From Deinococcales bacterium (GTDB lineage Bacteria > Deinococcota > Deinococci > Deinococcales > JAAFIG01), in contig JAAFIG010000049.1 in assembly GCA_013298595.1 (NCBI GenBank), forward strand, positions 1 through 26,836: a DNA stretch of 26,836 nucleotides. Direction: 5' to 3'. A program made the position numbers and the translations under genes. The notes below the pieces were generated by a model. It was not told where the DNA came from. It did not search any database and was given only the letters and a program-made list of their open reading frames with translations. Below are positions 9,270-26,836 of the stretch, piece after piece. Each line of letters opens with the position of its first letter. Positions within the stretch are counted from its first letter, which is position 1.

Positions 9270-9308
9270 GGTAACAACCATGTACCACATACCCTTTGGA
9301 GGTCTTAA

Positions 9309-9665
9309 ATGAAATTATTACTGATTGGATTTGTCGCTTTGCTCGGATTCGTGTCTTGTGCGCCGGATGCTGGTCGTCCAACATTGCGTCCTGTACTGAT
9401 TAAGCTGTCCGAACCTGCCAAGGTTGGTGAAACAGTCACCCTTCAAGGGCGTTACTTGGGAAGTAAAGACAATGGTGCTGTTATCTTTGGTGCAGATACT
9501 GTTGGTAATGGTGGTGCAACAGCTACTTCGGCTGATGTTGTCTCATGGAATGCTTCTGAAATTCAAGTACGTGTACCAGCTAACGCCAAAACAGGTGGCA
9601 ACTTTGTCTTTGTTTCCGTTGGTGGTGTCCTGAGTAACGGCATGGCTTACAGCATCACTCGTTAA
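9309..9665 (+). CDS. Small IPT/TIG-domain lipoprotein
   Basis: A 118-residue secreted lipoprotein. A signal peptide ends in GFVSC with lipidated Cys17. The rest is a single immunoglobulin-like IPT/TIG fold: strands LRPVLIKLS, GETVTLQGRYLG, GAVIFG, ADVVSWNASEIQVRVPANAKTGG, NFVFVSVGGVLSNGMAYSI. The SW-N-x-x-x-I-x-V-x-V-P run is the IPT hallmark. Such domains mediate binding at the cell surface; no partner can be named. The start is set by GGAGGT at 9298-9303, five bases before ATG. It is a single-gene unit, closed by the terminator at 9676-9715. The longer S8 protease encoded at 13692-15731 carries similar beta-rich modules. Confidence 0.85.
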   Translation: MKLLLIGFVALLGFVSCAPDAGRPTLRPVLIKLSEPAKVGETVTLQGRYLGSKDNGAVIFGADTVGNGGATATSADVVSWNASEIQVRVPANAKTGGNFVFVSVGGVLSNGMAYSITR

Positions 9666-9675
9666 TCTCGAGACT

Positions 9676-9715
9676 ATAAGGACGAAGGCACTAGGCTTTC
9701 GTCCTTATTCTTTTT
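9676..9715 (+). terminator. Rho-independent terminator
   Basis: An 11-bp perfect stem (9676-9686 with 9698-9708, core AAGGACGAA/TTCGTCCTT) and an 11-base loop are followed by a T-rich tail ending in TTTTT (9711-9715). It separates the IPT lipoprotein gene from the hisS promoter. Confidence 0.88.
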
Positions 9716-9730
9716 CGACTGAAGGCACAG

Positions 9731-9736
9731 TAGAAT
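9731..9736 (+). promoter_or_regulatory. -10 box, leaderless promoter of hisS
   Basis: TAGAAT ends six bases before ATG 9743, immediately after the preceding terminator. There is no Shine-Dalgarno, so an mRNA starting at or beside the ATG is expected. Confidence 0.6.
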
Positions 9737-9742
9737 CCAAGT

Positions 9743-11065
9743 ATGAAGTATCAAACCATCAAAGGCACTTTTGATAGACTCCCCGCAGACGCAGCTAAGT
9801 GGCGTTTGATTGAAGAAACCGCCAGAGTTGTACTCGAGCGGTTTGGCGCTGGTGAAATTCATACCCCTATTTTTGAAGACGTGGGTGTCTTCTCTAAAGC
9901 CGCTGGAGACTCGAGTGATATTGTTCGTAAGGAAATGTATGCCTTTACCGACCGAGGTGGACGTAACCTCTGCTTACGCCCTGAAGCCACTGCTGGTATG
10001 GTTCGGGCTTACCTCGAGCATGGTTTTTCTAGTAAACCCACACCTGTTAAATTCTGGACCTTTGAACCAATGTTTCGTGGTGAAAAACCACAAAAAGGGC
10101 GTGAACGGCAGTTTCACCAAGTGGGTTATGAAATCCTCGGATTATCCGACCCTCTTGCCGATGCTGAAATCATTGATGCTGGTGTGCAACTCCTTAGTCA
10201 ATTAGGGATTGAAGAGTATGTGATTCACCTTGGATCGGTAGGCGACCCAGAAGATCGGGCTGCATACAATCAATACCTCCGAGATACCCTCTCCCCTGCT
10301 TTTGCAAGATTAAGTGCCGAAAGTAAAGAACGCCTCGAGTTAAACCCAATGCGGATATTAGATAGTAAAATCGAATCCGACCAAGCTTTATTAAAAGAAT
10401 TAGCCGTCAAACCCATGCTCGAGTTCTTAGGTTCAGAAGCTCGAGATCACTTCGAGGCAGTGCAAAAATGCTTAACTGCTTGGGAAATCCCATTTGTAGT
10501 GGATTCAAGTATTGTGCGTGGTTTAGATTATTATCGTCGGACAGCCTTTGAATTTATTCATAACTCCCCTGCATTAGCGGGCTGTAGTACCATTTTAGCC
10601 GGTGGGCGTTACGATGGACTTGCCGAAATTCTTGGCGGGCAACACACCCCAGGGGTTGGTTGGGGTTGCGGAGCAGAACGGCTTATCCTTGCGATAGAAG
10701 CCGAAAAAATTGATGTACCAGAACTCGAGAAACCACTGGTTTATGTTATCCCACTCGATGAAGAAAGCATTTTATATGCCCATAATGTTGCTCGTGAAGC
10801 TCGTCGAGTAGCGCAATCCTTAGCCGCTTACAAAGTCAAAGGAATGGGGAAAGCCCTCTCCGATGCCGAAAAATTCGGTGCCAGATTCGCTGTTATTATT
10901 GGCAGTAACGAACGCGAAACAAGTATCCTCAACATCCGAGAACTTGCCACTCGAGAACAATTTACGGTTAGCCTCGAAGAATTCGGCGAATGGTTATTTG
11001 AACAAGACTTTGGCTCAGGATTAGAAGCTAATATCCGTATGCTGGAGGCACAACTCGAGGCATAA
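9743..11065 (+). CDS. hisS: Histidyl-tRNA synthetase
   Basis: A 440-residue class II synthetase that charges tRNA-His with histidine in the cytoplasm. It shows RPEATAGMVRAY (79-90), motif 2 FEPMFRGEKPQKGRERQFHQ (107-126), the histidine-specific RGLDYYRRTAFEF (259-271) and motif 3 GVGWGCGAERL (304-313). The C-terminal anticodon-binding domain starts near residue 330 (KPLVYVIPL). The length is slightly above the usual 420 or so. The start is supported by a TANNNT box six bases upstream and by the conserved opening of the protein. The TAA stop overlaps the ATG of a small broken gene (TAATG). Nine CTCGAG sites lie in the gene: six read Leu-Glu, one Ser-Ser and two x-Arg-x. Confidence 0.97.
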   Translation: MKYQTIKGTFDRLPADAAKWRLIEETARVVLERFGAGEIHTPIFEDVGVFSKAAGDSSDIVRKEMYAFTDRGGRNLCLRPEATAGMVRAYLEHGFSSKPTPVKFWTFEPMFRGEKPQKGRERQFHQVGYEILGLSDPLADAEIIDAGVQLLSQLGIEEYVIHLGSVGDPEDRAAYNQYLRDTLSPAFARLSAESKERLELNPMRILDSKIESDQALLKELAVKPMLEFLGSEARDHFEAVQKCLTAWEIPFVVDSSIVRGLDYYRRTAFEFIHNSPALAGCSTILAGGRYDGLAEILGGQHTPGVGWGCGAERLILAIEAEKIDVPELEKPLVYVIPLDEESILYAHNVAREARRVAQSLAAYKVKGMGKALSDAEKFGARFAVIIGSNERETSILNIRELATREQFTVSLEEFGEWLFEQDFGSGLEANIRMLEAQLEA

Positions 11066-11408: not shown

Positions 11409-11966
11409 TTACCAGCGCGGATTACCAATACCTCCGATACATGGTCCAGCTGGTTCTGGAGCTTTGAGGCTACCTGCAAATTTCTGAGTAAATCGAGCTA
11501 AGATATCTTGATTAATTTTTTGCATCTTAATGCGGTGTCCCCATGCAAGTATGGTGATTGGTGCTTCTAATCTTGGATACGGTGCAAGCAGGATATAAGG
11601 TCTACCAAGAGAAAATTTAACCAATGCTTGCCGTTGTTGAGAATCAATATCTGGGCGATAAGCTATCCAGACAGCGCCGTGCTCGAGGCTATGGACAGCA
11701 TTTTCGTCTTTGATTGGTTGTTCGTAAACACCACAATTTTGCCATTGCACATTATGATCGCCACCCATAGGTGGAAAACTAAAGTACTTTGCATTTTTCA
11801 CATGTTTGCGAGGTAATTCTGTAGCAACTTCAAGATCTGGAAATTCGAGTTTACTATTCGCTGTTTGCCAAATTAAAAACCCTGCAACTGCAATAATCAG
11901 TGCACCAACAGCAATGCCAAGGGGTAATAAAGGTAAGGGTTTAGTTACTTTTTTGTTTTGTGTCAT
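11409..11966 (-). CDS. DUF3105 membrane-anchored protein
   Basis: A 185-residue protein with an N-terminal anchor (about 12-33, LPLGIAVGALIIAVAGFLIW) and an exported DUF3105 domain: FSFPPMGGDHNVQWQNCGVYEQPI, then HSLEHGAVWIAYRP and a C-terminal CIGGIGNP. The conserved His/Cys residues look like a metal or redox site, but no activity is established for the family. ATG 11966 overlaps the upstream stop as ATGA, which decides this start over an in-frame codon at 11987. It is the last gene of the protease/secretin operon. Convergent with the broken gene after hisS, only two bases lie between their stops. Confidence 0.85.
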   Translation of the reverse strand: MTQNKKVTKPLPLLPLGIAVGALIIAVAGFLIWQTANSKLEFPDLEVATELPRKHVKNAKYFSFPPMGGDHNVQWQNCGVYEQPIKDENAVHSLEHGAVWIAYRPDIDSQQRQALVKFSLGRPYILLAPYPRLEAPITILAWGHRIKMQKINQDILARFTQKFAGSLKAPEPAGPCIGGIGNPRW

Positions 11967-12427
11967 GGTGTACCTGCTTGGCGACAAGGCGCAGTTTTGA
12001 GAGGAGTTTTGCTGTTACCTTGATAAAATGCAAAACTGAGCTTAGGGCGTTGGGCTAAATCGTAAATAAAAGCTCGGATCTCTGTGGTGTTGGGTTTTGC
12101 TGCAAGGGTCATCAGGGTGGTTTTATTATCGGCATAATAAAAGGCTTTCTCGAGTGGGCAAAAACCTGGATTTTCAAGATAGAAACGATCTATCGCAGCC
12201 AGAAAAGCTTTGTCATTTGTACCCTCATATTTATAAGCTTTAGCTGTTTGGGTATCAAGGGTAATCTCGAGGGTACGTAATGTATTCTTAAAAGCAAGTA
12301 GTAACGTTGTGGCTGTTTCTGTACTAGTTTCCACAAAGGGGATGCTATATGGGCTAGGTGCAGTTTGAGGTGCACAAGCCGCCAGCAAAAATATTGATCC
12401 CCAAAGTTGTAGCACTCGAGATTTCAT
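11963..12427 (-). CDS. Small lipoprotein of the secretin operon
   Basis: A 154-residue protein with a signal peptide ending in FLLAAC and lipidated Cys18, so it should be a periplasmic lipoprotein. After a Pro/Ser/Thr-rich tether comes a mixed alpha/beta domain (TETATTLLLAFKNTLRTLEITLDTQ ... FYYADNKTTLMTLAAKPNTTEIRAFIYDL) with Cys residues near the middle and end. No family is recognised. Its start overlaps the secretin stop and its stop overlaps the DUF3105 start, both as ATGA. By position it could be a secretin-associated factor or pilotin-like protein, but there is no sequence proof. Confidence 0.75.
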   Translation of the reverse strand: MKSRVLQLWGSIFLLAACAPQTAPSPYSIPFVETSTETATTLLLAFKNTLRTLEITLDTQTAKAYKYEGTNDKAFLAAIDRFYLENPGFCPLEKAFYYADNKTTLMTLAAKPNTTEIRAFIYDLAQRPKLSFAFYQGNSKTPLKTAPCRQAGTP

Positions 12428-13695
12428 CGTTCTCCAGGTATTGGAGCAGGTGGTGGTGCAACAGGGGTAGCAGGAGTGCGTGGCAAAATTAAGTAAGGAG
12501 TGACAACAATCACCAATTCGGTGGTGCGTTGAACAGTGTTGGTGGTTTTAAAGAGTTCTCCTAAAATTGGAATGTCCATTAAACCAGGAATACCTTCGGT
12601 GGTACTGCTGCGTTGATTCTCGAGTAAACCGCCAATAACAATTGGTTCGCCATTTCCAACCCGTACAGTGGTGTTGGCTTCTCGAGTACTGAATGAATTC
12701 TTACCAGTTGGTGCACTGACAGCAACACTGAGACTTGATTCGATTTGCCCATCAGGTGCCACTTTTGGCAGTAACCGCAATGTAATACCTGTGGTGGTGG
12801 TGACAATGGTTTGTCCGCCATTTGGCGCAGAGACTGTTGTTGAAACAGTTTGTGTACTGTTTAACCGAGCCTCAACACCGTCTAAGGTAGTGACTCGAGG
12901 TCGGGCTAAAGTAGTAGCTGCCCCTGTGGTTTTGAGTAAATCTAAGCCAATTTTAACATTCAGGGGTGCACGGGTAATATCGCCTAATTCAAAAATACTT
13001 GCTGGTGTGCCTTCAGTTAAGGAGAAACTAAAGAGGTCGCGGTAATTGATCCCTAAACTTTGCGATAAGGTGTCGTTAATCTCGAGGATTTCAGCTTCAA
13101 AGGCGACTTGTGGACGTGGTGCATCCAAGGCATTGACAATTGAACGAATAAATTCCCAGTCTTTTTTGACAGCAAAAACAATGATACTGCGCTGACGGGT
13201 GTCTACTTCAACTTTTAAGTTATACGATCTGGATAATATGCCTGCCACAAATTGAGGTTCAGCATTGGCAAGTGGAATAATCAGTGGGAAGCGTTCGTCT
13301 TGCTCAGTAACAGTATTGGTATTTGCTGCAACTAAAGCCCGAATACTGACTACTTTACTATCTGTTGAAAAACTAGCATTGATTGTATACGCAAACTCGA
13401 GCAACAAGCCATCGGTGGTATTGCTGGCTCGAAGGATACTGGGGTCTGGTAATTGATAACGAGTGGTTTCGTCAAGCACAGCTTGAAGAATGGTCACTTG
13501 TTTTTGGCTGGCATCTAAACGGTAACGTAAAGCTTGGCTTGCACTAACTGTTAAAGTACCTGTAGGTGCATCAAATACTACTTTGACTGGGATAAAATTG
13601 TTACTTTGTGCAGCTGTCAGGCTTAACCCTACACTCGAGAAAAGCAGTGCAATTAGAAAAAAGAATGGTTTGAGTTTCAGGGTAAATACGTTCAT
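12424..13695 (-). CDS. Short secretin (GspD/PilQ family outer-membrane channel)
   Basis: A 423-residue protein with a signal peptide (cleavage near Ala-Ala-Gln30), a unique beta-rich N-terminal part to about 130, one N-domain (about 135-190, LIIPLANAEPQFVAGILS ... SIVNALDAPRPQVAFEAEI) and a secretin domain (195-405). Diagnostic motifs are LDLLKTTGAATTLARPRVTTLDG and, in the last third, VRVGNGEPIVIGGLL, GIPGLMDIPILGELF (368-382) and ELVIVVTPYLI. Secretins form multimeric outer-membrane gates for type II/III secretion, type IV pili or phage exit. This one is short and ends in a Pro-rich tail. No pilin, ATPase or inner-membrane platform gene lies nearby. Its ATG overlaps the S8 protease stop. 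Confidence 0.93.
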   Translation of the reverse strand: MNVFTLKLKPFFFLIALLFSSVGLSLTAAQSNNFIPVKVVFDAPTGTLTVSASQALRYRLDASQKQVTILQAVLDETTRYQLPDPSILRASNTTDGLLLEFAYTINASFSTDSKVVSIRALVAANTNTVTEQDERFPLIIPLANAEPQFVAGILSRSYNLKVEVDTRQRSIIVFAVKKDWEFIRSIVNALDAPRPQVAFEAEILEINDTLSQSLGINYRDLFSFSLTEGTPASIFELGDITRAPLNVKIGLDLLKTTGAATTLARPRVTTLDGVEARLNSTQTVSTTVSAPNGGQTIVTTTTGITLRLLPKVAPDGQIESSLSVAVSAPTGKNSFSTREANTTVRVGNGEPIVIGGLLENQRSSTTEGIPGLMDIPILGELFKTTNTVQRTTELVIVVTPYLILPRTPATPVAPPPAPIPGER

Positions 13696-15731
13696 CGTGT
13701 TGCCTCCAAAGTGTACGTGGTTGAACCTGTCGAAATTGTTAAATTGATTGTGCCTACATCCAGAATTTGGGCACTTTGTACAGTGATAGCAGTTGCAGCA
13801 GAAATAAATTCGCCTGCTTCGCCAAGAATGGCATCACCATCGGTATCCGAAGCAATCACTAACGAATTGGCTTGATTTGTCTCGAGATTACCAATTAAAA
13901 AAGAGCTATCAGCGGTTATAACAGACCAAGTAACGATTTTACCAGCACTATCAAGGATTAAAGCGTAACTTCGTGGGCTGAGTGATTGACCGATTTGTGC
14001 ATTGACTAAACCATAACCGTAACGTGTATCGTACCCTCGAGCACCAAGATCAAGAGCTGTTTTAGCAAGGGCATCGCGGACAAGCCGTTGAGGTGTACCT
14101 CCAGAAATTGCTAAAGCCGCCACCCCTGCTGCCACTGGAGTTGCCATGCTTGTACCGTTTCGTAAGGCATAACCACCAGCGATATCTAAGCTCAGTATGC
14201 CATCTGGAATGCCATCCCGATTTTGATCAGCTGCCATATCGCCACCAAAAGCCGACACCCAAACACCATCGCCTTTTTGCGCGTACCCAGGCTGGTAGAG
14301 TGTACTTGGACCTGCCAGAGCCGTAACAGCAATAACACCAGGTAAAGCCGCAGGGAAAGCCAATGCACTCGAGCCATTATTACCAGCCGCTGCCAGCACA
14401 ATCACACCTTTAGCAAGCACTCGAGCAATCGCATCGGCAATAAGATTCGAGAACGTATTCGAGCCAAGCGATAAATTAATAATCTGGGCAGGGTTGGGAT
14501 TAGGTTGCCCCTCGAGTAAACCCGCTGCCCACAGAATCCCCTCGGCAACAGGACCATCGGAGCCACCATTTAAGTCGCGCAACACCCGAATAGGTACGAT
14601 TTTCGCAGCTGGTGCCACACCGAGCGCCAAACCATTAGCGGCAATTAACCCTGCTACGTGCGAACCATGACCTGCAATATCCATTGCTTCGGAATCTAAA
14701 TCCACAAAATCGTACCCAGATAAAATTGTGTTGATCAAATCTGGATGCGTTAAATCCACACCTGTATCCACCACAGCAACTGTTACTCCAGCGCCTTTAG
14801 TCGCGTTCCAAACAGCAGTTAAACCCATTAAATTCAAATGCCATTGCCCCGCTCCAGGCGAGCTTGGAGCAGCCACCCCAGAAGTAGCAGTAATACCATC
14901 GGCAGGAGCAAACCAAGAAGCCCACTCGGTCTTGAAACGTTTTTGTCCAAGCCGTATCCAAGCTGCTTTAGCTGCCGCAATTGAAGTGAATTGTAATTGT
15001 ACTGCTTTTAAAGTCCTTACCTCGAGATGACTTTGTAAATCTGATAAAGCCAAAGTTTGCAAATCAACCCAAGTCGTATTAAACACCGTCATACTTTTGC
15101 TCTCAGCCGCCAATGCTTGCAAGCGCACAGGTGGTGTCACACTCGAGGTACTCGCTGGCATTTGTACTGTGCCACGAACAGCCCCAGCTTCTCGAGCCAA
15201 CCGCACTGTGTTTGAGACTGCACCACCCACAACCACTTGCACATCCAGAGCACCAAAAGGCAAACCATTTGGCAGTGAAGCCAGTAAATCCTGCCCTTGC
15301 CGAGTTGTATTGAGTGCTCGCCCATTCAAAGTTAAGGTGGCATCTAATCCACCAGTGGTCGCCCAACCAACACCAGAAACCAACAAAGCTGACCCATTCA
15401 ACAAAGCTGTATTCACTCGAGGTACCAAATTCACCACTGTCTCGAGTGGTTCAGTTAAAACCGCTGCTTTGAATTGCAAAGTGCGCTGACCAGCACTGAC
15501 CTCGAGAGGCAGACGAATCGAAACCCCATCGGTAATTGGAGTCGCACTAACTGCAACACCATCTAATGTGATCGTAGCACCTGCTGGCAGTACCCCAAAA
15601 ACCGAGATGGTATCGCCAGGAACAGCTTCATTAGGAATAACAGCACTGATGCCATACTCAATAACAACTTTGGATGGTTTAGGGCAAGCCACCAAAGTCA
15701 GCAATAAAACAACCATCAAAACTCGAGACAT
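13692..15731 (-). CDS. S8 subtilisin-like serine protease lipoprotein with IPT-like domains
   Basis: A 679-residue exported protease. The signal peptide ends LTLVAC with lipidated Cys16. Ig/IPT-like beta modules fill about 24-180, and a linker/prodomain-like region runs to about 295. The S8 domain (300-585) has Asp322 (VAVVDTGVD), His355 (GHGSHVAG), oxyanion Asn451 (AAAGNNGS) and Ser528 (NGTSMATP), so it should be active. The C-terminal 95 residues form a beta domain with an acidic DTDGDAILGEAGE loop, possibly calcium binding. The start at 15731 is chosen for the lipobox and the AAGGA Shine-Dalgarno in the 10-bp gap after the previous stop; the frame is open further upstream without such signals. 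The stop overlaps the secretin start. Confidence 0.93.
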   Translation of the reverse strand: MSRVLMVVLLLTLVACPKPSKVVIEYGISAVIPNEAVPGDTISVFGVLPAGATITLDGVAVSATPITDGVSIRLPLEVSAGQRTLQFKAAVLTEPLETVVNLVPRVNTALLNGSALLVSGVGWATTGGLDATLTLNGRALNTTRQGQDLLASLPNGLPFGALDVQVVVGGAVSNTVRLAREAGAVRGTVQMPASTSSVTPPVRLQALAAESKSMTVFNTTWVDLQTLALSDLQSHLEVRTLKAVQLQFTSIAAAKAAWIRLGQKRFKTEWASWFAPADGITATSGVAAPSSPGAGQWHLNLMGLTAVWNATKGAGVTVAVVDTGVDLTHPDLINTILSGYDFVDLDSEAMDIAGHGSHVAGLIAANGLALGVAPAAKIVPIRVLRDLNGGSDGPVAEGILWAAGLLEGQPNPNPAQIINLSLGSNTFSNLIADAIARVLAKGVIVLAAAGNNGSSALAFPAALPGVIAVTALAGPSTLYQPGYAQKGDGVWVSAFGGDMAADQNRDGIPDGILSLDIAGGYALRNGTSMATPVAAGVAALAISGGTPQRLVRDALAKTALDLGARGYDTRYGYGLVNAQIGQSLSPRSYALILDSAGKIVTWSVITADSSFLIGNLETNQANSLVIASDTDGDAILGEAGEFISAATAITVQSAQILDVGTINLTISTGSTTYTLEATR

Positions 15732-15741
15732 GCTTTTATCC

Positions 15742-16920
15742 TTATGGAACTGAAATGCGCTGAGCAGCGCTGTACGTAAAACCATCGGCTTTGTCTTGTT
15801 GATCGAAACTGACACCAACAATCAACCAATAATAATTACCCGTTGGTAAAGGATTACACTTGACCGCACCATTTAATGCAGGAATTGGATAGACTGCCGA
15901 TAAAGCCGAAGTGGTTTTTGGAAAATTCGTACACATGATTTTTGGTTTAGTCACCCCAAACGGATCGCCATCATAAATAAAATACTGATATCCAATCACA
16001 CCTGTGGTAGCTGTCCAAGACAAATTCGGTTGACCATCGGCAATCACTGCACCATCAAAAGGCGCACCAGAATCCTGAGCGGGCAAAAACTTAGCACCGT
16101 CAGCATTTGATTTACCCGTTTCCACCGCGCCACCACTGGTTAAACTTGTCACAGCCCCAAAAACCGAATCGCCAACTCGAGCTGTATCCACAAAACGTTG
16201 AAAAACCTGCAAAGCCGAATTGGTATCCGAAGCTTGATTACGAATCCGCGTATAAGGACCAACCAATTCATCCGCCGAGTACACACCGTACCCATCTGCA
16301 CCAAGCACAGGCGACCACTCCCATTGCTGAGCAAAAACCCGATCTCCAATAGCCGCCAAAGGTTTAACCCCAGATGCTCGAGCCGCAACCCCATCGGTCG
16401 GTGGTGTAACCGAACTCATTGCAGCAGGTAACAAACTTTGCCCCGATTGCAAACGCAAAGCACCCGAAGCTGGTTTCGCCGCAGGCGGATAGGTAAACGC
16501 TGCTAACAAAGACAAATTCGGCACACCAGAATTCTGCGTTCGTACCCGCACAGGATCCGAAGTACCAACATTACCACCACGATCCACAGCCTCGGCAATA
16601 ATCTCGAGCGGCAATTGATTCGGCACACCAGAAGCACTAGCAGTATTCCAAGAAACCACGAACGGCTTGGTAATACTCGAGCCAATCAGCACACCTTTTT
16701 TGGTACTGCCCACACCTCGAGCATAAACATTGACTTTGGTAATACTGGTTTCTTCGTCCTTAGCATCAATTTGAATTGGTGCAGTACCGGTTAAAACCGA
16801 ATCCTGAGCTGGATTAGTAATATTGGCAGTTGGTGGATTGGCATCAGGTGGTTTAGGACACGCCACCAGTACACCACTCAGACCTAGAGCCACTGCGACA
16901 ATCTGAACATTTTTTAGCAT
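15742..16920 (-). CDS. Ig/FN3-like surface lipoprotein, first gene of the secretin operon
   Basis: A 392-residue lipoprotein. The signal peptide ends VLVAC with Cys21, followed by CPKPPD; the downstream protease also has VACPKP. Residues about 25-125 form an Ig-like module (PPTANITNPAQDSVLTGTAPIQIDAKDEETSI...EAVDRGGN). A Pro/Ala linker leads to a fibronectin-III-like module (VFAQQWEWSPVLGADGYGVYSADELVGPYTRI) and a second one (PNLSWTATTGVIGYQYFIYDGDPF ... YYWLIVGVSFD). It looks like a binding or structural surface protein with no enzymatic motif. An AAAGGGG Shine-Dalgarno precedes the ATG. It likely heads the five-gene operon to DUF3105. A TATACT at 16991-16996 on this strand is a possible -10 box. 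Confidence 0.8.
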   Translation of the reverse strand: MLKNVQIVAVALGLSGVLVACPKPPDANPPTANITNPAQDSVLTGTAPIQIDAKDEETSITKVNVYARGVGSTKKGVLIGSSITKPFVVSWNTASASGVPNQLPLEIIAEAVDRGGNVGTSDPVRVRTQNSGVPNLSLLAAFTYPPAAKPASGALRLQSGQSLLPAAMSSVTPPTDGVAARASGVKPLAAIGDRVFAQQWEWSPVLGADGYGVYSADELVGPYTRIRNQASDTNSALQVFQRFVDTARVGDSVFGAVTSLTSGGAVETGKSNADGAKFLPAQDSGAPFDGAVIADGQPNLSWTATTGVIGYQYFIYDGDPFGVTKPKIMCTNFPKTTSALSAVYPIPALNGAVKCNPLPTGNYYWLIVGVSFDQQDKADGFTYSAAQRISVP

Positions 16921-17033: not shown

Positions 17034-17062
17034 TTGACAAGTATAAATGGATGCTTCAAAGT
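17034..17062 (+). promoter_or_regulatory. Promoter of the toxin-antitoxin operon
   Basis: A perfect TTGACA (17034-17039), a 17-base spacer and CAAAGT (17057-17062) end six bases before ATG 17069, the same spacing as the leaderless promoters here. TATAAA at 17042-17047 is an alternative -10 without a good -35. Either reading disfavours the upstream ATG at 17051. Confidence 0.45.
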
Positions 17063-17068
17063 ATCCAA

Positions 17069-17464
17069 ATGGCAATCATTGCATACCCGTTCTACCCAAA
17101 TAAAATACATGCTCATAACCCACCTCTTATAGAAGACCTAATCGAACTCGAAGCCACTCAACACCAACTATGCGTAAGTCAAATCATTAACATGATCGCT
17201 GACCTAAAAAACAACGGAACAAATAGCCGATACCTCAAAAAAATGCGCGGCGCATTCCTCGAACTCAAAACTGCCTCCCGAGGCGGAGACAAAGGTGGTG
17301 CAAGAGTCTACTTATTCAAAGCAGCCAAAGAAACTTTTTACCTTTGCCGAGCCGAATGCAAAAGTGGAAACGAAGCCGATGCCCTCCTCCTATACAGCAC
17401 CCTTGAAATCCTAGAAGCGTTCCAAAACAAACAACCCTTATTCCCAAACCGAGGTGAACAATGA
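17069..17464 (+). CDS. RelE/HigB-like toxin of a type II toxin-antitoxin pair
   Basis: A 131-residue protein (137 if ATG 17051 is used). An N-terminal helical part is followed by the RelE/HigB-like core: YLKKMRGAFLELKTAS, GGARVYLFKAAKETFYLCRAECKSGN, then a C-terminal helix (LLLYSTLEILEAFQ). The LxGxFxELK...xRVxxF order is that of HigB/phage Gp49-like toxins, which cut mRNA at the ribosome. The HGF..K pattern typical of such toxins is altered here to CRAECKSGN. Its stop overlaps the antitoxin ATG. Toxin-before-antitoxin order and an XRE partner fit the HigBA arrangement. The identification rests on pattern and context and is moderately sure. Confidence 0.7.
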   Translation: MAIIAYPFYPNKIHAHNPPLIEDLIELEATQHQLCVSQIINMIADLKNNGTNSRYLKKMRGAFLELKTASRGGDKGGARVYLFKAAKETFYLCRAECKSGNEADALLLYSTLEILEAFQNKQPLFPNRGEQ

Positions 17465-17874
17465 AAAAAAATACTCTTGCAGGAATCCCACTACGCAACC
17501 TCGAGCAACTCAGCGCAGAACAACAAGCCAAACTCGAAGCAGCCCTCAATAAACCAAGTCGTCGCTCTCAAACAAAAACACCACCAGACACCATTGAAAC
17601 AAGTATCGAAACCTTACAACAAGCCATCGAAAAAGGCGTAACCCAAAAACGCATTGGTACACTCTTAAAACAAGCCAGACAACAAGTACAACAAAGTGGC
17701 AGAAAAACAGCGCAACGCTTAAACATGAATCATGCTCAACTAAGAAAACTCGAGGAAAGTGACACAAATCTAGAAGTGACTAGCCTAGTACGAGTTGCAC
17801 ACGAACTCGAGTTTGATGTGACCATAAGATTAGAACCAAGGCGCAACGGCACTGTTTTAGAAACAAAATTATAA
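17461..17874 (+). CDS. XRE-family antitoxin (HigA-like)
   Basis: A 137-residue protein. The N-terminal 60 residues are Gln/Glu-rich and helical (LEQLSAEQQAKLEAALNKPS). A helix-turn-helix of XRE type spans about 65-125 (RIGTLLKQARQQVQQSGRKTAQRLNMNHAQLRKLEES ... TSLVRVAHELEFDVTIRLEP). The closing FDVTIRLEP is common in HigA-like antitoxins. It should bind and neutralise the upstream toxin and repress the shared promoter. The ATG overlaps the toxin stop (ATGA) with GAGGTGA just upstream as Shine-Dalgarno. A strong terminator lies about 145 bases after the stop. Confidence 0.8.
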   Translation: MKKNTLAGIPLRNLEQLSAEQQAKLEAALNKPSRRSQTKTPPDTIETSIETLQQAIEKGVTQKRIGTLLKQARQQVQQSGRKTAQRLNMNHAQLRKLEESDTNLEVTSLVRVAHELEFDVTIRLEPRRNGTVLETKL

Positions 17875-18273: not shown

Positions 18274-18690
18274 TCAAGAATTATTATGATTTAATAGGTC
18301 AAATTTCCGTATGTTAGCAACAGGTAGACTGTACATATTACCTTTTTTCATTTTGACAAAAAGTTTAGTGAAACCTATTCCAACTCGAGTAACATATTGT
18401 GTACCAAAACTAAAATTGGTGGTTATGAAAATATTTTCCACTTGATCTATTGGAATTGAAATTATTCTAAATGAAACAACAAAAAGTACAATTTTATCAT
18501 CAAAGATTGAATAAGAATAAGCGTACTTCTGAAACAATCCATTGGCAATAAAAAATACTATCATTCCCAATAAAAACGAAAATATAGCGTGTAAACCCCA
18601 ATTATATAACAAGTAAATAAGAAAGAAAGACAAACCTCCATACAAATAGAAGCAAAAACTATCGACTATTAAACCAATAATTACTGACAT
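18274..18690 (-). CDS. Small membrane protein paired with the RHS gene; possible immunity protein
   Basis: A 138-residue protein. Two hydrophobic segments (about 4-24 and 32-52) are followed by a soluble tail (YSIFDDKIVLFVVSFRIISIPIDQVENIFI ... KLFVKMKKGNMYSLPVANIRKFDLL) resembling bacterial PH-like domains attached to membrane helices. The ATG overlaps the RHS stop codon (TAATG), so it is translationally coupled to the giant gene. The gene is visibly AT-rich and has one CTCGAG. In polymorphic toxin loci the gene directly after an RHS toxin is usually its immunity protein, and membrane immunity proteins are common; that role is inferred only from position. It might equally be an assembly or anchoring factor. 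Confidence 0.7.
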   Translation of the reverse strand: MSVIIGLIVDSFCFYLYGGLSFFLIYLLYNWGLHAIFSFLLGMIVFFIANGLFQKYAYSYSIFDDKIVLFVVSFRIISIPIDQVENIFITTNFSFGTQYVTRVGIGFTKLFVKMKKGNMYSLPVANIRKFDLLNHNNS

Positions 18691-21600
18691 TACCTACACC
18701 CTGAAGCACCTGGAACAAAGGTTAAAGAGCCAGATACCCCTGCCGCTTTTTCTAATGTAAGCCCGATTCCCCAATAGCCTTCATCTCCAATTTCAGCATT
18801 AAAACTTCCAATCGCTGGTATCGGAACACTCAGCGCTATTTTATCACCAGAATAACCAGAACGATTTGAACTAAGTACTGACGCACCACTAAGAGAACCA
18901 GAAAGTCCAAGCGCACCGCCTATACCAGGAGTAACTTGTGGCGGAGCAAAATTAATTCCAAACTTCCCAGTGGTTTCAGTTACGTTAACTGTCGCAATAG
19001 ATGTAAGTACTTTTCCCCCAAGCAAGCGACCACCCTCCGCTGATGGTCCATTTAGTGAAACTGAAAATGTACTTCCATCCGCTCCTCGTGTTGCAGCGTC
19101 TCGTCCACGGATACAAGCTTGATGAATGTCATAAAAGGCTTGTGTTGAATTTGCATTAATGGTCGCCATTGTACCCTGACTTAACTGACCTCCAATACCA
19201 TCACCTGTAATTTTATGATTGATATACCCATTTTTGCCAAACATCCAATTCATGAACTGATTCCTGTCTCCGTTGTTGGATAATTTAACATTTCTTGTCG
19301 CCATCGGCACATTCGCACATGGATTAGACGAAAAAGCAGTTCCAGCACCGATAGGACAACCAGGACCCATATATGCTGCTCGTCCACCAAAGCCGTGATT
19401 TTTGAAGGCATCATCACAAGTCTTTAATGCACCACCACTTGCTCTAGCTCGAATTCCACATAAATCAGCTAGTTCTTTTCGCCATTCAGGAATTGTAATT
19501 TCATTTTTTGCAAGACCCATAGCTAACCCAGTATAAGCCTGAATCCTATCTCTTGGAGTAAATTCAGCAGCTTGAAAGTATCCATCAAGTGCATTTAAAT
19601 CAGCTTTAGCTTGGATTCTTGCTTCAGCATCAGACAACCCTTGTTGTTTATAGCGATCTTCCAATTCAGATTTAGCTTCATCTCTAGCGCACTGTTCAAG
19701 TACTCCCATCAGAGCATCAGCTTCTTCTCTTGATATAGCATCTTTTGCCTTTAATGATTTGGCAACTGCTTTAAAGCATTGTGTGCCTGCCGCATTTGTA
19801 CCAGTACTAAACGGTTTTACATCATTACCACTAGTGTTAGGTTTAGCACTCGAGACTGGCGGCTTAACACTACTTGCACTTGTACTCGGCACATTACTCG
19901 AGGATGGACTGGTCACACTACTGGCACTTGGTGTACTACTCGAGGGTGTACTCGCACTTGCATTTGGACTGGTTACACTCGAGGCTGCGGTACTTGGAAC
20001 ATTTGGTGCACTGTTCGGACTGGTCACACTACTGGCTGTGGTTGTCACTCCAACTGGTGCGGCTTGACTTGGTGCTTGCAGTGTTGAAGTACTCGAAGTG
20101 GTTGGTGCATTACTTGGTTGACTCGAGGTAGTAGTGGTTGTTGTTCCGACGCTTGGACTCGAGACAGCTTGACTTTGCGGTTGACTCGAGCTAGTGGTTG
20201 TACCTGTGGCTGGGCTGGTAATGCCTTGAGTTTGCGCCTGACTCGAGCTTGCAGGTTGAGCAGTTCCACTCGAGGTAGTTGATGCACTCGAGGTTGGGGT
20301 TGTCACAGAACTCGCTGTGCCACTAGGCGCTTGACCAGAAGCACTAGGACTCGTCACACTCGAGGCACTCGTAATTCCCGTTTGAGAAGCCACAGAAGCC
20401 GTAGGAGCCTCGAGCGGAGCACCACCAGCAGGAGCTTTAGGAGCCTCGAGCGGTGTGAAAATATCCCATTGCGGGTTATTTAATTCTTCTTCACGAACAC
20501 TATCTGCCAGACTAAAGGTTTCGTCTTGATCTCGAAACACCATACCTGGGGTACTGTCATACCACCAGGCAGTCAGGTGATTCTTAACTTGATCTCCATA
20601 ACTTCTGTTGACTGCGTGAATTAATTGTGGTTGCCCATCTACAAAAATTGTGGATTGTTGCTTGGTAAAAATACCCACACTACTATTCCCAAGCGAAGGT
20701 TTGGAATCCCATGCCTCGTACAATCGGGTATTGCTACTTAACGAGAGATTACCTTCTGGATCGTATACAAAGTTTTGTGAATTTGTCATATAGCCAGCTG
20801 GGTATGGATTTGGTTGCGCGAAACCTGAAGCGTTTTGATACCAGCTTTTTCTAATTTCAACAGCTTGTTCGTCGGCATTAAAACGCTGTGCTCCGTTGAA
20901 ATCATGGTTGGTTCGTAAACCGTTACTAGAAAGACTATATGTATACCATCCAATATTGGAGCCGAAACGACCTTCAGTCACACCATTTGAAGCCGTATAT
21001 ATATTACTTTCTGCTTTAAGAACGTTGTTATTATTGTATTGCCAAGTTCTATCTGTAGTACCATTGTATGGAAGTGTTGCACCAATTCGATTACCAGCAT
21101 CATCATATGTAAATGTTTCCGTGAATAACTGTGTAAATGCACCACTTCCAGTAGAGTCTTTATAAGTTATGGCACTTGTAACTTCGCCATTACCATTAAA
21201 TATATTGACAACTTTGTTGACCGCATTGGTAGTTATTTCTTTTTTACTACTTTCTCCTAGTAGTCCACCAATTGTTACTTTACGAGTGGAATTATATTTA
21301 CCATTGCTAAGAGTTGTGGTGGTTACACCAAGACCTGGAAAGAAAATACTGGTAGTCACTGCAACTCCTGTACCATCGCCATTACCGTCTACTTGCGAAA
21401 CCAGTCTGCCTCGAGAATCATAAGAATATGTTTGTGAACTAATCAAATTAGCGGCAGTGTCTGTGTTTGTGTTGTACACATGAACACTTTTCTTTTGTCC
21501 GCTCTTGTAATAGTTATACTTCGAGGTACGAGTTGAACTGGTGTTAAGATTAACTGTGCCTGCATTGTATGTTGTTGTCGAAGTACTTTCCTTGGTTGTA

Positions 21601-24600
21601 ACAAAATCAAGACGGTCGGCATCGTTATACTCGAATCCAGTATATGATTGCGGAGTTATCATTGATGTTGCAGGTGGTCTCAGTTTTTCGGCTCCAGTTC
21701 CTTTTGGTAAACTTGAAGCGACTGTAAATTGTGTACCTGGGTTACGGAAACTTTCCACATAGGTTTTTAAGTTTGTTTCTCGAGAGATTTGCTTATTGGT
21801 TTTTGAATAAGTATACGTGAATATATCTGTTTTTGGTGTATTCGGATCAATGGATAAACCAAGTGTAACATCAGTGCTTTGCTTGTAACTCTCGAGTAAG
21901 TTGCCATTTGCATCGTATTTCCAGAATTGAGCATAATTTGGACTACCATTCGTAGAGCTATCTGCTCGAATGAATTTAGCGTAAATGCTCGGGTCACCCT
22001 TATGGAATCTCGAGTACATTAAACCAAGTCCGTTAAAGTTCTGGTACTGAGTTTTTTCTTTTACTAAAACATTTGCACTGTTACGTCCACTACTGACAAT
22101 TTTTGTGCGTTTGCCCGCTGCACTGAGGATGTATTCTTGTAAATTTCCTTTTGTTACAGTACTTGAAGCTTCTTGGGTATCTCCATGTACAAGTGTATTG
22201 GTAAAGTTACCACTTACCGCACCATCTTCGTACCCATAATTACTTTCACGAACTTTTTCACCATCTAATCGGTACGCGTACCACTTGTAATTGTCGACAC
22301 TGGTTTTGTACGGGCGACTTTCTTTTTGTACTTTACCCATGCTGCTATAACTGTAATCTGTTACCAAGCCACGTTCTGTTTTCTTTGTTAAGTTGCCTGC
22401 AATATCGTACTCGTATGTATTTTGAATAGCTGCTACTGTTGGAAAAGCAACATCATCAACTGTTCCAGCACGTTTAGGTTTGATTTCACGTACAAGTCGG
22501 TTAAACGCATCGTACGTGTAATTTGTAATGAACCCATCAGCATCTTTTAAGTCTTTGACATTACCTCGAGCATCATATGTTTGCGTAATAGTATTACCAT
22601 CTGGCAGTGTTTGTTTTGTTAAACGCCCAGCCCAGTCGTACTCGAGAATGGTATGCCCAGATCCTATTTGAGCAGCAACATTGTCATTCACGGCTTGGCT
22701 CATCCCAGTTGGGTATTTTTTATTGTTGCTATACCCAAAGGATCTCACCGCAACATAATTCGCTAGGTTTCCATCTGCTGGGGTACTGGGGTTATTATCA
22801 GGTTCCCATACACTACCTAGTGTTCCATCAGGATAGTAACTGTTGACCTTGGTTGTGATACCTCGAGCGTCTTTTTCAGCAGCAACATTCCCAAGAATAT
22901 CGTAGCGTTTATAAGATGTGTTACCTCGAGCATCTGTGAAACTGGTTTGTCTGCCCATTGCATCGTATTCGTAGCGAGAGGTGACGTTTCTGTTAACATC
23001 TGCTCCTTCAAAATTTGCTAAACAGTCAGCTTCGTACCAATAGCAAACTTGTTGTTTTTTGCTTGTCAGATTATCCACGCCATCATATGTAAATTGAGTG
23101 TAATTAGAATCTGGATCGTAAGTAGAAATGATTCGGTCGAATCCATCGTAAGTACTAATATTTGTTGCGATTTGAGCACCACTTGGCATACTCGTTATGT
23201 CAGCAGCGCCTGTTTGTATGGCTGCTGGTGTCATAGCTGTTGTCGATTGTAATAATTTTCGTTCAGTTGTGCGACGATCTAAACCATCGTAAACGTACTC
23301 GGAGTATGGTCTACGAGTATCTGCATATCCTGATGTACCAACGGAACGCAACACTGGCTCGAGTTTCTTGGTTAAATTACCATTAGAATCGTAGACAAGG
23401 TACGTGCTTTGATCTTTATCTCCTGATGTAATGCTGTTAAGTGCCCCATTTTGAATTCTGATTGGTCGGTCAAAATTATCATATGTCATGATGGTGGCAT
23501 AGCCTAATGCAACGTTATTTAAAAATCCGTTGGCATTAGAATCTCGAGTATCTTTGGTGACTCTGCCTAATGAATCTACTTCTCGGTAATGACAATCTGT
23601 TGTTCCTAAATAACTTGTGCCACCTGCGTTGCATTCGGCATCTTTTGTTCCACTTGGGTGGTAGTTTATGACATCGTAATTTCCGTCTTGCTTGGTTCGT
23701 TGAATAACACGATTCAACGTATCATATCTATACGTCGTAGTATTTTCATCATCAATTTTAGTTTGTATGACACGTCCAGCAGCATCGTACAGAATATCGG
23801 TTTTTTCTCGGATTGTATCTATTGTCCAAGAATTATTTGTATTGATACCTTTAGTAATTTTATTAACTCGTCCTGTACTGGTATCGTAATCATATAGCAC
23901 CAAGTTATTGATGCTTCCTATTTTTGTGCTTTTTAGCTCGCCTGTAGCGTAATAATCCCATTCTTGTTTACTTGCTTCTCGAGGATGTTCGTAAACACGT
24001 TCAAAGGTTTTTTGTCCAAAGCCATTATAAACACTTTCGGTAATTCGGTCTTTGCGGTATTCATTACCTACAGCTGTTGCATTGGCATCTCGTAATTCGG
24101 TAGCTAATGCACCTTTTTCGTTTTGCAAACTCACTTTCCCTAACCAGTCGTAGGTGAATTCTGTGGTTTTTTCTGTTACATTACCAACACTAACCACTGC
24201 TTTTTGCACATAATCTTGGTATTGAATTGCTGTGTTTGGGGTACGGATATTGACGCTTATGCCAGTGGGCGATAATGCAGGAGCAGGTAAAGCTGCCGCG
24301 CTTCCTGTTGCGTATGTATATGTTGTTTTTGTGGTTGGTAAGTTGCTTCCACTGCGCGTAGATTCTTTTAATCTTCCTTGAGTATCTATTGTTGTATCCA
24401 GTGTGTACCGCAGCAAGGATCCCATATGCCGTTGCGATGAAATTGTATTGATTGCTGTAAAACTTTGACCTGCCGTGGTGATTGTATGATTCGTATATGA
24501 TCGCAGCCATTTAACATCGGAGTATGTGTAAGCAACTTCACCTCGAGTCTGCGTACCATTTGTACCCAATTGTTTTTCTTCGGTAACTCGGTTATCTAAA

Positions 24601-26836
24601 TCGTATGTCATGGTTTGAGCACGTTCAAATCCAGCAGTTGGTGTGTATGTTGAATTCAGGACCGAACCATCAGCACCCATAGGTCGAGTTGCTAAGTTAG
24701 TTTCAATTCTCGAGACCATACCAGCAGCACTGTATTGGTAGTCTGTGATTTTACCTGCTGGGTCTACGATGCGTTTTGTACTGCCGTTCGGGTAGTATTC
24801 GTAGTTCCACATATCCATATTATTGACTTGTTTACTTGCTCGGATTAACCAACTACTAGCTGTCCACGGATTGTAGTTACGCACTCGTTTATGCAGTAAT
24901 GCACCAGTGTTAAAATCGTAATAATAAAATTCTTGCTTATGATCATTACCAGATATATCTTGGGTCATGGTGACTTCACGTGTGCCTGGCATAACACTAT
25001 TACCACCATCGTTGTAAGCGTACGTTATGTCTGGTTCTATTTTCGTACCTGCACCTGGTGAATCATTGTTATTCGTAATAACATTGGTTAGTCTACCTGT
25101 TGGGTCATACCCATAATGTGTGACTTTCCAGCCTTGTGTACCGAGCATTAGGCGTTTAATTCGGGTGACTAAAAGTCTATTTGCTTTTTGTCCATAATCA
25201 AATTCGGTAGTACGGGTAGATTGACCACCACGTCCATCGTATGTGAGATACGTTATCTTTGTTATAACTTGTTGATTGCCAAACAGACCATATGTGTAAG
25301 TCGTTGCTATTGACCATGTATTATTAACATCGTTTTCATTTTGCACAAATTGGTACACACCATTTAAAGTTCCATCTGTACTCCAATAATACCGATGAAC
25401 CCGACCCCACTCATCTTTAACTTTACTCAGTAAACCAGTAATTGGTTGGCTCGAACCCGTTGGTGTCACACTGGTATACGTCAATTCTGTTTTAGGTGAA
25501 CTAGCCAGTTCCCCTTCAGGATCGCTGTTCACAGCTCCTCGGTATTGCTGATGCAGTGTTTGCGTGTAATCAGCGAATTCACTATCTTCACCACTAGTAC
25601 CAAAAAATGTCACTCGAGTGCCATCACTTGTGTAGTAATGAGCAATGCTGTTATTCCCAGCTCGAGTGCGTAGTACAACGTATTCACTGCTGTACTGAGT
25701 TCCGCCTTTTGGTGCGAGGGTGTAAATGGTGGTGTCAGCCAGTGCATTACCTGTTGTTGTATCTTTGTATCGCGTTATCCAACTTGGTTTATCAGTGAAC
25801 CACGCTGCATTAGCAGTTGTGACTTTGTTGAAAGTGGTGGTGCTACCATCTCCGCTTGAGAGTGTGATAGTTGGAGCTGGTTCAAAGATTTGTTTTACAG
25901 AGATATCTTTGATTTCCCAAGATGGGTTGTTTGCAGTAAGTTCAAAGATTTCAAAGACTCGTCCGTGTGTACTACCTGCTGGAACTGTGAAATCCTGAGT
26001 TAAGTTCTGCCATGTTGTAGTGAGTGTTCGATAACCAACATTGTAATCACTTAATCCAAAAGTGACTGGGAGTGTGCCATTTCGAGTTCGAGCGTTAATG
26101 GAGGCTCGGTATTTTCCTGGTGCTAAGTTTTCAACTCGCATAATTCCACTGTGATTTTGTGCTCCGTAAGGTGCAAGTGCAGGATTATCAGCACTTAGTA
26201 ATCTCGAGAAGGTTTCTGTGCTTGGTCTAATACAGTACATACCCCAATTGAGTGTGTTCTGATCTGTGATTAAATTTGTTCCAGGAACTCCATTTTCAAT
26301 TTTTTGTACTATTAAGTTAGTTACTTCCCAACTTGGATTACTCGCTGTGTTTTCGCGTAATTGCATTAATCGTTTTTGATAACCAGGGTTACTTAGTAAA
26401 ACGTGTCCTGCGGGTATTATAAAATCTGATGTAAATGATTGCCATTGCGTATTCAAATTTGCATTAGCAGTGAAGTAATCATTGACTCCATAACTCACAG
26501 CAAGGTTCGCATCGGCGCGTCCATCAAAAGTGACTCGGTATGTTCCAGCCGTGATATTTGTGAGTCCATCTCGGATAACACCACTGATATTCTGATTTGG
26601 ACTCGCACACCCATTGTCGGTACTTGCAAATCGATTTATTGGAAGTACAGCTGGTTTCGTCTGGTAATTACTCCAGTAACTCGAGGCTGCATTCTGCTCA
26701 GTTATCTTATTGGTACTGAGTTCATTACCCCAGTTCTTGGTGAAACCATTTAAGCGTAGCCTAGATTTTAATTGCCATTGACCACCACCAATGCTATTAG
26801 CGGTTTCATCATTACTGCTTAGGATATTGTTTCTAG
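18690..26836 (-). CDS. Giant RHS/YD-repeat protein, 5' end beyond the window
   Basis: The frame is open from the right edge to TAA 18690-18692, over 2,700 residues. The GTG at 26498 is not the start: another 112 codons read upstream without a stop, with matching domain sequence (ITAGTYRVTFDGRA). From the N-terminus there are at least two carbohydrate-binding-like beta modules (YRVTFDGRA...WQSFTSDF; YRASINAR...WQNLTQDF), each ending in NPSWE. A long YD-repeat shell (about 25480 to 20700) follows, with units such as YDTLNRVIQRTKQDGN, YDAMGRQTSFTDARGN and YDWAGRLTKQTLPDGN. Next comes a Ser/Thr/Pro linker and a 370-residue tip. YD shells encapsulate toxins or form surface filaments. The usual DPxG core motif before the tip is not seen. 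Whether the tip is a toxin is unknown. Confidence 0.93.
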   Translation of the reverse strand, partial: RNNILSSNDETANSIGGGQWQLKSRLRLNGFTKNWGNELSTNKITEQNAASSYWSNYQTKPAVLPINRFASTDNGCASPNQNISGVIRDGLTNITAGTYRVTFDGRADANLAVSYGVNDYFTANANLNTQWQSFTSDFIIPAGHVLLSNPGYQKRLMQLRENTASNPSWEVTNLIVQKIENGVPGTNLITDQNTLNWGMYCIRPSTETFSRLLSADNPALAPYGAQNHSGIMRVENLAPGKYRASINARTRNGTLPVTFGLSDYNVGYRTLTTTWQNLTQDFTVPAGSTHGRVFEIFELTANNPSWEIKDISVKQIFEPAPTITLSSGDGSTTTFNKVTTANAAWFTDKPSWITRYKDTTTGNALADTTIYTLAPKGGTQYSSEYVVLRTRAGNNSIAHYYTSDGTRVTFFGTSGEDSEFADYTQTLHQQYRGAVNSDPEGELASSPKTELTYTSVTPTGSSQPITGLLSKVKDEWGRVHRYYWSTDGTLNGVYQFVQNENDVNNTWSIATTYTYGLFGNQQVITKITYLTYDGRGGQSTRTTEFDYGQKANRLLVTRIKRLMLGTQGWKVTHYGYDPTGRLTNVITNNNDSPGAGTKIEPDITYAYNDGGNSVMPGTREVTMTQDISGNDHKQEFYYYDFNTGALLHKRVRNYNPWTASSWLIRASKQVNNMDMWNYEYYPNGSTKRIVDPAGKITDYQYSAAGMVSRIETNLATRPMGADGSVLNSTYTPTAGFERAQTMTYDLDNRVTEEKQLGTNGTQTRGEVAYTYSDVKWLRSYTNHTITTAGQSFTAINTISSQRHMGSLLRYTLDTTIDTQGRLKESTRSGSNLPTTKTTYTYATGSAAALPAPALSPTGISVNIRTPNTAIQYQDYVQKAVVSVGNVTEKTTEFTYDWLGKVSLQNEKGALATELRDANATAVGNEYRKDRITESVYNGFGQKTFERVYEHPREASKQEWDYYATGELKSTKIGSINNLVLYDYDTSTGRVNKITKGINTNNSWTIDTIREKTDILYDAAGRVIQTKIDDENTTTYRYDTLNRVIQRTKQDGNYDVINYHPSGTKDAECNAGGTSYLGTTDCHYREVDSLGRVTKDTRDSNANGFLNNVALGYATIMTYDNFDRPIRIQNGALNSITSGDKDQSTYLVYDSNGNLTKKLEPVLRSVGTSGYADTRRPYSEYVYDGLDRRTTERKLLQSTTAMTPAAIQTGAADITSMPSGAQIATNISTYDGFDRIISTYDPDSNYTQFTYDGVDNLTSKKQQVCYWYEADCLANFEGADVNRNVTSRYEYDAMGRQTSFTDARGNTSYKRYDILGNVAAEKDARGITTKVNSYYPDGTLGSVWEPDNNPSTPADGNLANYVAVRSFGYSNNKKYPTGMSQAVNDNVAAQIGSGHTILEYDWAGRLTKQTLPDGNTITQTYDARGNVKDLKDADGFITNYTYDAFNRLVREIKPKRAGTVDDVAFPTVAAIQNTYEYDIAGNLTKKTERGLVTDYSYSSMGKVQKESRPYKTSVDNYKWYAYRLDGEKVRESNYGYEDGAVSGNFTNTLVHGDTQEASSTVTKGNLQEYILSAAGKRTKIVSSGRNSANVLVKEKTQYQNFNGLGLMYSRFHKGDPSIYAKFIRADSSTNGSPNYAQFWKYDANGNLLESYKQSTDVTLGLSIDPNTPKTDIFTYTYSKTNKQISRETNLKTYVESFRNPGTQFTVASSLPKGTGAEKLRPPATSMITPQSYTGFEYNDADRLDFVTTKESTSTTTYNAGTVNLNTSSTRTSKYNYYKSGQKKSVHVYNTNTDTAANLISSQTYSYDSRGRLVSQVDGNGDGTGVAVTTSIFFPGLGVTTTTLSNGKYNSTRKVTIGGLLGESSKKEITTNAVNKVVNIFNGNGEVTSAITYKDSTGSGAFTQLFTETFTYDDAGNRIGATLPYNGTTDRTWQYNNNNVLKAESNIYTASNGVTEGRFGSNIGWYTYSLSSNGLRTNHDFNGAQRFNADEQAVEIRKSWYQNASGFAQPNPYPAGYMTNSQNFVYDPEGNLSLSSNTRLYEAWDSKPSLGNSSVGIFTKQQSTIFVDGQPQLIHAVNRSYGDQVKNHLTAWWYDSTPGMVFRDQDETFSLADSVREEELNNPQWDIFTPLEAPKAPAGGAPLEAPTASVASQTGITSASSVTSPSASGQAPSGTASSVTTPTSSASTTSSGTAQPASSSQAQTQGITSPATGTTTSSSQPQSQAVSSPSVGTTTTTTSSQPSNAPTTSSTSTLQAPSQAAPVGVTTTASSVTSPNSAPNVPSTAASSVTSPNASASTPSSSTPSASSVTSPSSSNVPSTSASSVKPPVSSAKPNTSGNDVKPFSTGTNAAGTQCFKAVAKSLKAKDAISREEADALMGVLEQCARDEAKSELEDRYKQQGLSDAEARIQAKADLNALDGYFQAAEFTPRDRIQAYTGLAMGLAKNEITIPEWRKELADLCGIRARASGGALKTCDDAFKNHGFGGRAAYMGPGCPIGAGTAFSSNPCANVPMATRNVKLSNNGDRNQFMNWMFGKNGYINHKITGDGIGGQLSQGTMATINANSTQAFYDIHQACIRGRDAATRGADGSTFSVSLNGPSAEGGRLLGGKVLTSIATVNVTETTGKFGINFAPPQVTPGIGGALGLSGSLSGASVLSSNRSGYSGDKIALSVPIPAIGSFNAEIGDEGYWGIGLTLEKAAGVSGSLTFVPGASGCR
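18693..19830 (-). other. Variable C-terminal tip of the RHS protein
   Basis: About 375 residues after the linker. The first half is helical and charged (CFKAVAKSLKAKDAISREEADALMGVLEQ, YKQQGLSDAEARIQAKADLNALDGYF) with several cysteines. The second half is Gly/Ser-rich and beta-like (SLNGPSAEGGRLLGG, GGALGLSGSLSGAS, GYWGIGLTLEKAAG), ending in GASGCR. No known nuclease, deaminase or protease motif was recognised. The stretch has no CTCGAG sites, in contrast to the linker beside it, so it may have been exchanged horizontally. Confidence 0.5.
19831..20456 (-). repeat. Ser/Thr/Pro-rich linker with repeated SSVTSP units
   Basis: About 210 low-complexity residues contain at least six variants of ASSVTSP (also ASSVTTP, ASSVKPP) among Gln-, Ala- and Pro-rich runs. 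Thirteen CTCGAG copies occur in about 600 bases, mostly read as Ser-Ser or in Leu-Glu-Ala-Pro. It separates the YD shell from the C-terminal tip and is likely an extended, possibly glycosylated, flexible stalk. Confidence 0.75.

Follow-up and report, generated by a model that had tools for sequence, protein, structure and literature searches.

There is a gap in our picture of giant Rhs toxins, namely how those that enter the periplasm by the Sec route then get across the outer membrane, and the locus described here makes the question testable, as it offers a conserved four-gene partner that includes an outer-membrane gate. It lies on contig JAAFIG010000049.1 of a Deinococcales bacterium (assembly GCA_013298595.1), whose whole stretch of 26,836 nucleotides was analysed and is called the window below. 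In it, an operon of five tightly packed genes, among them those of a lipid-anchored S8 subtilase and a short secretin, stands downstream of a gene for a giant Rhs/YD-repeat protein. Four of the five genes recur as a conserved, unnamed partner of Sec-exported Rhs toxins in the Deinococcota, so that a known kind of toxin would here have a new kind of export partner. We infer from this linkage that the four-gene core is probably a dedicated export and processing module of the outer membrane for the giant toxin.

The operon and the adjoining Rhs gene

The genes at the centre of the analysis are the following, all on the minus strand:

18690..26834, minus: giant Rhs/YD-repeat polymorphic-toxin protein of at least 2714 amino acids (aa), 5' end lost at the contig end; proposed substrate
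15742..16920, minus: lipoprotein with immunoglobulin-like (Ig; Big_7)/FN3-like domains, first core gene (Pfam Big_7, E=8e-9; lipobox LSGVLVAC)
13692..15731, minus: S8 subtilase lipoprotein, 679 aa, ATG at 15731 (Pfam Peptidase_S8, E=1e-42; lipobox LTLVAC)
12424..13695, minus: short secretin, 423 aa (Pfam PF00263, E=3e-37; PF03958 found once)
11963..12427, minus: small lipoprotein (lipobox LAAC, FYxxxPGFCP motif, C-terminal Cys)
11409..11966, minus: DUF3105 protein, ATG at 11966 (Pfam DUF3105, E=5e-38); local fifth gene

Calls of open reading frames (ORFs) together with their translations showed that all five operon genes (11409-16920) are present in this order and are joined by ATGA overlaps at three junctions and by a 10-bp gap at the fourth, which separates the Ig stop codon from the S8 ATG at 15731. 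This is the packing that a first-pass annotation, made from the sequence alone, had described, and only start positions had to be corrected. The catalytic residues Asp322, His355 and Ser528 that it had named for the subtilase are exactly those found, in the canonical motifs VVDTGVDL, GHGSHVAG and GTSMATP. Lipoboxes are present in three of the proteins (Ig/FN3 protein, subtilase and small lipoprotein). The secretin consists of a signal peptide, an N-terminal region of about 110 aa, a Secretin_N domain at residues 139-196 and the secretin gate, and a single N-domain, as proposed earlier, is all that Pfam finds in it. The small lipoprotein, which had already been noted as unrecognised, gave no match in Pfam or NCBIfam. 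A scan for promoters and terminators returned counts not above those of shuffled sequence.

While the five genes of the interval originally drawn are real, it omitted the adjoining giant gene, whose product is the likely substrate. This Rhs gene lies upstream of the operon in the same direction and matches Pfam RHS_repeat (PF05593) in five stretches with E=2.9e-32. A second Rhs gene of the host genome (G000), encoding 2823 aa, was found on another contig (C51, L122 698-9169); its product has a leader of Sec type, as read by eye, and a different C-terminus. The two paralogues are 50–58% identical with shared blocks of up to 97% identity, whereas their last ~270 aa share only 19–25%. Judged from the sequences, such a conserved core with a divergent C-terminus is the usual pattern of polymorphic toxins.

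As the window protein has lost its N-terminus, leaders were read from relatives. Those with an intact 5' end, on C51 and in genome G012, start with a basic and then hydrophobic leader that we read by eye as Sec-type, and the Rhs proteins of Deinococcus wulumuqiensis and D. gobiensis show the same type, again by eye, once their annotated starts are extended upstream. No match to the sheath protein VipB of type VI secretion systems (T6SS; PF05943) was found in the 94%-complete host genome.

A recurrent core beside toxin genes

In order to see whether the gene order is found in other genomes, as the first-pass annotation had suggested, we searched a set of 111 genomes of the phylum, in which no match could be assigned to Deinococcus, as well as plasmids. 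Strong secretin matches were present in four of the 111, namely the host genome, a metagenome-assembled genome (MAG) of the Deinococcales (G002), Calidithermus chliarophilus (G033) and C. roseus (G034). A scan of genome contigs with the secretin alignment, which required exact peptide patterns, found only the MAG and the two Calidithermus loci; the Deinococcus loci came from tblastn of plasmids and are located on pDrdI of D. wulumuqiensis and P6 of D. gobiensis. Viral contigs scanned with secretins gave no match. On pDrdI all four genes follow each other in the order Ig, S8, secretin and small lipoprotein with overlapping ends as in the window, and the small lipoprotein there shares the lipobox and the FYxxxPGFCP motif with its window counterpart. 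P6 has Ig, S8 and secretin, and G002 has S8, secretin and lipoprotein, showing that the order is not unique to one genome. In all intact copies the secretin gene overlaps or abuts the S8 gene, and in G002, G008 and D. wulumuqiensis a homologue of the small lipoprotein immediately follows the secretin on its 3' side. The operon-type S8 proteins of G002 and G034 score 390–469 bits, compared to at most 178 bits for other subtilases of the phylum. Ig orthologues with a conserved C-terminal half are present in D. wulumuqiensis, D. gobiensis, C. chliarophilus and C. roseus and N-terminal fragments occur in G100; among the phylum genomes, E<1e-20 was reached only in G000, G033, G034 and G100.

The core is thus made up of four genes (Ig/FN3 lipoprotein, S8 lipoprotein, secretin and small lipoprotein). 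DUF3105 was considered as a core gene and rejected, as it gave no match in the loci of D. wulumuqiensis, D. gobiensis and G002, and it is therefore a local fifth gene; of the five-gene unit proposed at first, the four-gene order that recurs on pDrdI has stood and DUF3105 has dropped out. In C. roseus a broken copy with a cut Ig gene, a frameshifted S8 gene and a cut secretin gene (G034:C145, L058 10224-13099) lies beside radical-SAM peptide genes, likely a cluster for ribosomally synthesized and post-translationally modified peptides. Over the secretin stretch compared, C. roseus and C. chliarophilus do not differ at all, and this sequence identity suggests a recent transfer.

A Rhs or Hint toxin gene accompanies the operon in most lineages. 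On pDrdI the Rhs gene is divergent from the operon with 279 bp between the annotated starts, and on P6 it is divergent from Ig-S8-secretin with 311 bp between them and is followed by a Hint-domain toxin gene and an ankyrin gene. Hint toxin cassettes stand just upstream of an Ig-gap-secretin arrangement in C. chliarophilus. Two contigs of G100 carry a Hint toxin gene, an immunity-like gene and an Ig-gene fragment in one direction, and in G008 a secretin end and the lipoprotein gene lie within an array of Hint cassettes. The layouts are both co-directional and divergent, which argues against one frozen arrangement. Toxin loci are rare, since PT-HINT matches with E <= 0.001 were found in only 10 of the 111 genomes, several of them in long frames that by our own reading look like inteins. 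The adjacency of operon and toxin genes in G000, G033, G100 (twice), G008, pDrdI and P6 is far above chance; a rough hand estimate, obtained by multiplying the fractions of each replicon that lie within 3 kb of such a gene and ignoring shared ancestry, gives a probability below 1e-8. A search of 72,556 plasmids with the Ig protein and with two different Rhs proteins gave, for every query, only the same two records, pDrdI and P6. We regard the association of the operon with Rhs as very probably functional.

Some details of these loci are given for completeness. The Rhs and Hint-toxin genes of P6 (L163 9560-9584) look like a single gene with a frame break, and a second Rhs/Hint pair at 2340-10714 looks alike. 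In C. chliarophilus (L041) a piece comprising the Ig end and the S8 start lies inside a Hint toxin gene, while the secretin directly continues from the Ig start, apparently through misjoins at N-gaps. Hint toxin cassettes are densely packed on contig C19 of G008 (L121), where they lie in both orientations and seem to be interspersed with immunity-like genes.

A candidate export route and its rivals

A giant protein exported by Sec in a diderm needs an exit through the outer membrane, and as the operon encodes a gate it is a candidate for this exit. In the route that we propose, the Rhs protein would first reach the periplasm by Sec. The secretin, being devoid of the extra N-domains that dock to the inner-membrane platforms of type II systems or type IV pili (T4P), would then act as the gate in the outer membrane, with the small lipoprotein as its pilotin or chaperone. 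The Ig lipoprotein would deliver the Rhs protein to the gate, and the lipid-anchored subtilase would finally cleave it, leading to release from the surface or to a freed toxin tip. What has been observed are the gene order and its recurrence, the linkage to Rhs and Hint genes, the domains, the Sec-type leaders read by eye on relatives and the missing T6SS sheath; the Rhs protein as substrate and the gate, targeting and cleavage steps are what we infer from them. The first-pass annotation had already suggested a dedicated processing or export device without a name, and the recurrent order as well as a secretin that is neither PilQ nor GspD speak for it, with export as the conditional part. Taken as a whole, an undescribed pathway by which diderms without type VI deploy Rhs proteins, each leaving through its own platform-free secretin, guided by the Ig protein and cut by the subtilase, is a serious possibility that we put forward tentatively.

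The small lipoprotein was modelled with a mean predicted local distance difference test score (pLDDT) of 80, and its topology weakly resembles PsbP, DcrB and Eag chaperones. Foldseek gave E values of about 0.03–0.1 and VIA gave Z-scores of about 5 with PA1624, PsbP, Flpp3, SciW, EagT6 and DcrB tied, and unrelated folds score alike. A profile of the protein found no match among PDB sequences, and no type II or type III pilotin is among the best 50 fold matches listed, which excludes nothing. The Eag/PsbP-like fold is therefore a weak lead from the model with no significant match. The model of the secretin (mean pLDDT 41.6) was not used.

Several observations weigh against such a module. Secretins normally require an inner-membrane energy source, and none was seen for this gate: the T2SSE family is represented in the host genome by one 891-aa frame of PilB size and three PilT-like frames of 356–398 aa, none of them near the operon, while GspF was not searched. 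As a speculation, the chain could be drawn outwards as the Rhs shell folds on the outside of the cell. G002 carries the lipoprotein, secretin and S8 genes, but searches found no Rhs gene on the 18.6-kb contig or elsewhere in the genome, and it shows neither a detectable Ig gene nor a visible S8 lipobox. On P6 no small lipoprotein was found by BLAST, and the broken copy of C. roseus lies away from toxin genes. Conversely, G012 has a Rhs gene of the same family with no operon genes detected, and the Rhs gene on C51 has no operon beside it, although its product might share the operon of the window. The scaffold of C. chliarophilus (G033:C5) contains N-gaps and apparent misjoins, making the exact order there uncertain, and the toxin-adjacent cases of G100 and G008 are fragments, so that part of the linkage could stem from recombination hot spots.

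If the secretin were an auxiliary PilQ or GspD of a T4P or type II system, or a gate like pIV of filamentous phages, its neighbours would be there by chance. It does belong to the secretin family, M13 protein IV is its best PHROG match (PHROG 1012, E=1e-32), and the host genome (4.58 Mb, 68 contigs) does have a T4P locus. This locus, however, lies on a different contig (C68) and contains the only other secretin of the genome in the row pilM-pilN-pilO-(two further proteins)-pilQ, with gene names assigned from sequence and order, whereas no pilM-N-O-P genes are present in the window and, in agreement with the earlier claim, no type II or T4P core genes adjoin the operon. A tree of 21 secretins places the six from operons in a single group on a long stem with 100/100 support, apart from all sampled PilQ-type secretins of the Deinococcota including that of the host itself. 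The protein scores 130.3 bits with the NCBIfam PilQ model (cut-off 284.35) and 140.5 bits with TIGR02517 for GspD (cut-off 351.35), and it also stays under the NCBIfam cut-offs of SctC and MshL. No phage assembly or coat genes were found among the translated and searched ORFs of the window. Together with the recurring S8 and Rhs neighbours, this makes an auxiliary or phage-like gate very improbable, and the simple assignment as an ordinary PilQ or GspD of a system encoded elsewhere, which had been named as the finding that would overturn the idea, was rejected.

More weight has to be given to an operon that acts on the Rhs protein without exporting it. In this case the subtilase and the Ig protein would mature, anchor or shed a Rhs protein that has reached the surface otherwise, and the secretin would release fragments or wall material or serve another role. 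That both proteins are lipoproteins, that the best NCBIfam match of the subtilase is mycosin (TIGR03921, 158.9 bits, below the cut-off), a protease that assists a secretion system, and that no module energising the secretin from the inner membrane was seen all fit this explanation; yet conservation within the unit is as tight for the secretin as for the S8 protein, with overlapping or abutting genes wherever the copy is intact, and we consider the explanation unlikely. Less likely still is a linkage without function, in which toxin cassettes and the operon simply reside on the same variable islands and plasmids that move horizontally, and operon fragments were captured beside cassettes. The patchy spread over four of the 111 genomes, the plasmid locations, the fragments in G100 and G008 and the identical secretin stretch of the two Calidithermus species would be expected from this. 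Against it, separate lineages carry intact operons abutting Rhs genes in one or the other of two opposite layouts, and the Rhs and Ig families share their two-record distribution among the plasmids. An export and processing module for the Rhs protein thus remains the reading that we prefer.

Known systems and neighbouring genes

Mycosins are membrane-anchored S8 proteases that serve type VII secretion. The operon subtilase is similar in its anchoring and in its best NCBIfam match, but differs in a score of 158.9 bits, below the cut-off of 278.75 bits, and in being a lipoprotein of a diderm that is encoded with a secretin. With filamentous phage pIV the operon shares a short secretin without an adjoining type II or T4P apparatus; unlike pIV, the secretin of the operon has no phage genes nearby, is constantly paired with a subtilase and lipoproteins, and has a Rhs protein as the candidate substrate in its vicinity. 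Type VI Rhs effectors with Eag chaperones such as SciW and EagT6 are alike in their Rhs cargo and in the weak resemblance of the small lipoprotein model described above. They are unlike the present system in that the host genome has no T6SS sheath gene and the relatives of the Rhs protein have Sec-type leaders; moreover, the small protein is, in contrast to Eag chaperones, a lipoprotein, and its fold match is not significant.

The closest known class are the Sec-exported Rhs polymorphic toxins (Zhang et al. 2012, PMC3482391), with which our locus shares the giant Rhs protein, Hint domains and Sec-type leaders in relatives, and a variable C-terminus followed by small genes. The parts of this survey that we could draw on treat the Sec route as the default with no signature neighbour genes and do not mention secretins, and compared with the class as presented there, a secretin-subtilase-lipoprotein operon accompanying the Rhs gene is a difference. 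No published description of the module was found, and none of the papers in the open library searched combined Rhs, secretin and subtilisin. If export is true, a secretin would here operate in the absence of any type II, type III or T4P platform, lipid-anchored subtilases would gain a new role, and the crossing of the outer membrane by Rhs toxins where no type VI 'syringe' is present would be explained.

Two further features lie between the Rhs gene and the operon:

18274..18690, minus: 138-aa membrane protein encoded immediately downstream of the Rhs gene; immunity candidate by position and hydrophobic sequence
17051..17874, plus: RelE/HigA-like gene pair with weak helix-turn-helix matches, between the Rhs/138-aa genes and the operon

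The 138-aa protein matched no Pfam family. The Rhs gene on C51 is likewise followed by a gene for a membrane protein of about 136 aa, which shows no significant similarity to that of the window. The RelE/HigA-like pair is regarded as standing outside the system and is possibly a later insertion. Elsewhere in the window, a small TIG-domain lipoprotein is encoded at 9309-9665 on the plus strand, between the gene of a peptide-binding protein and hisS.

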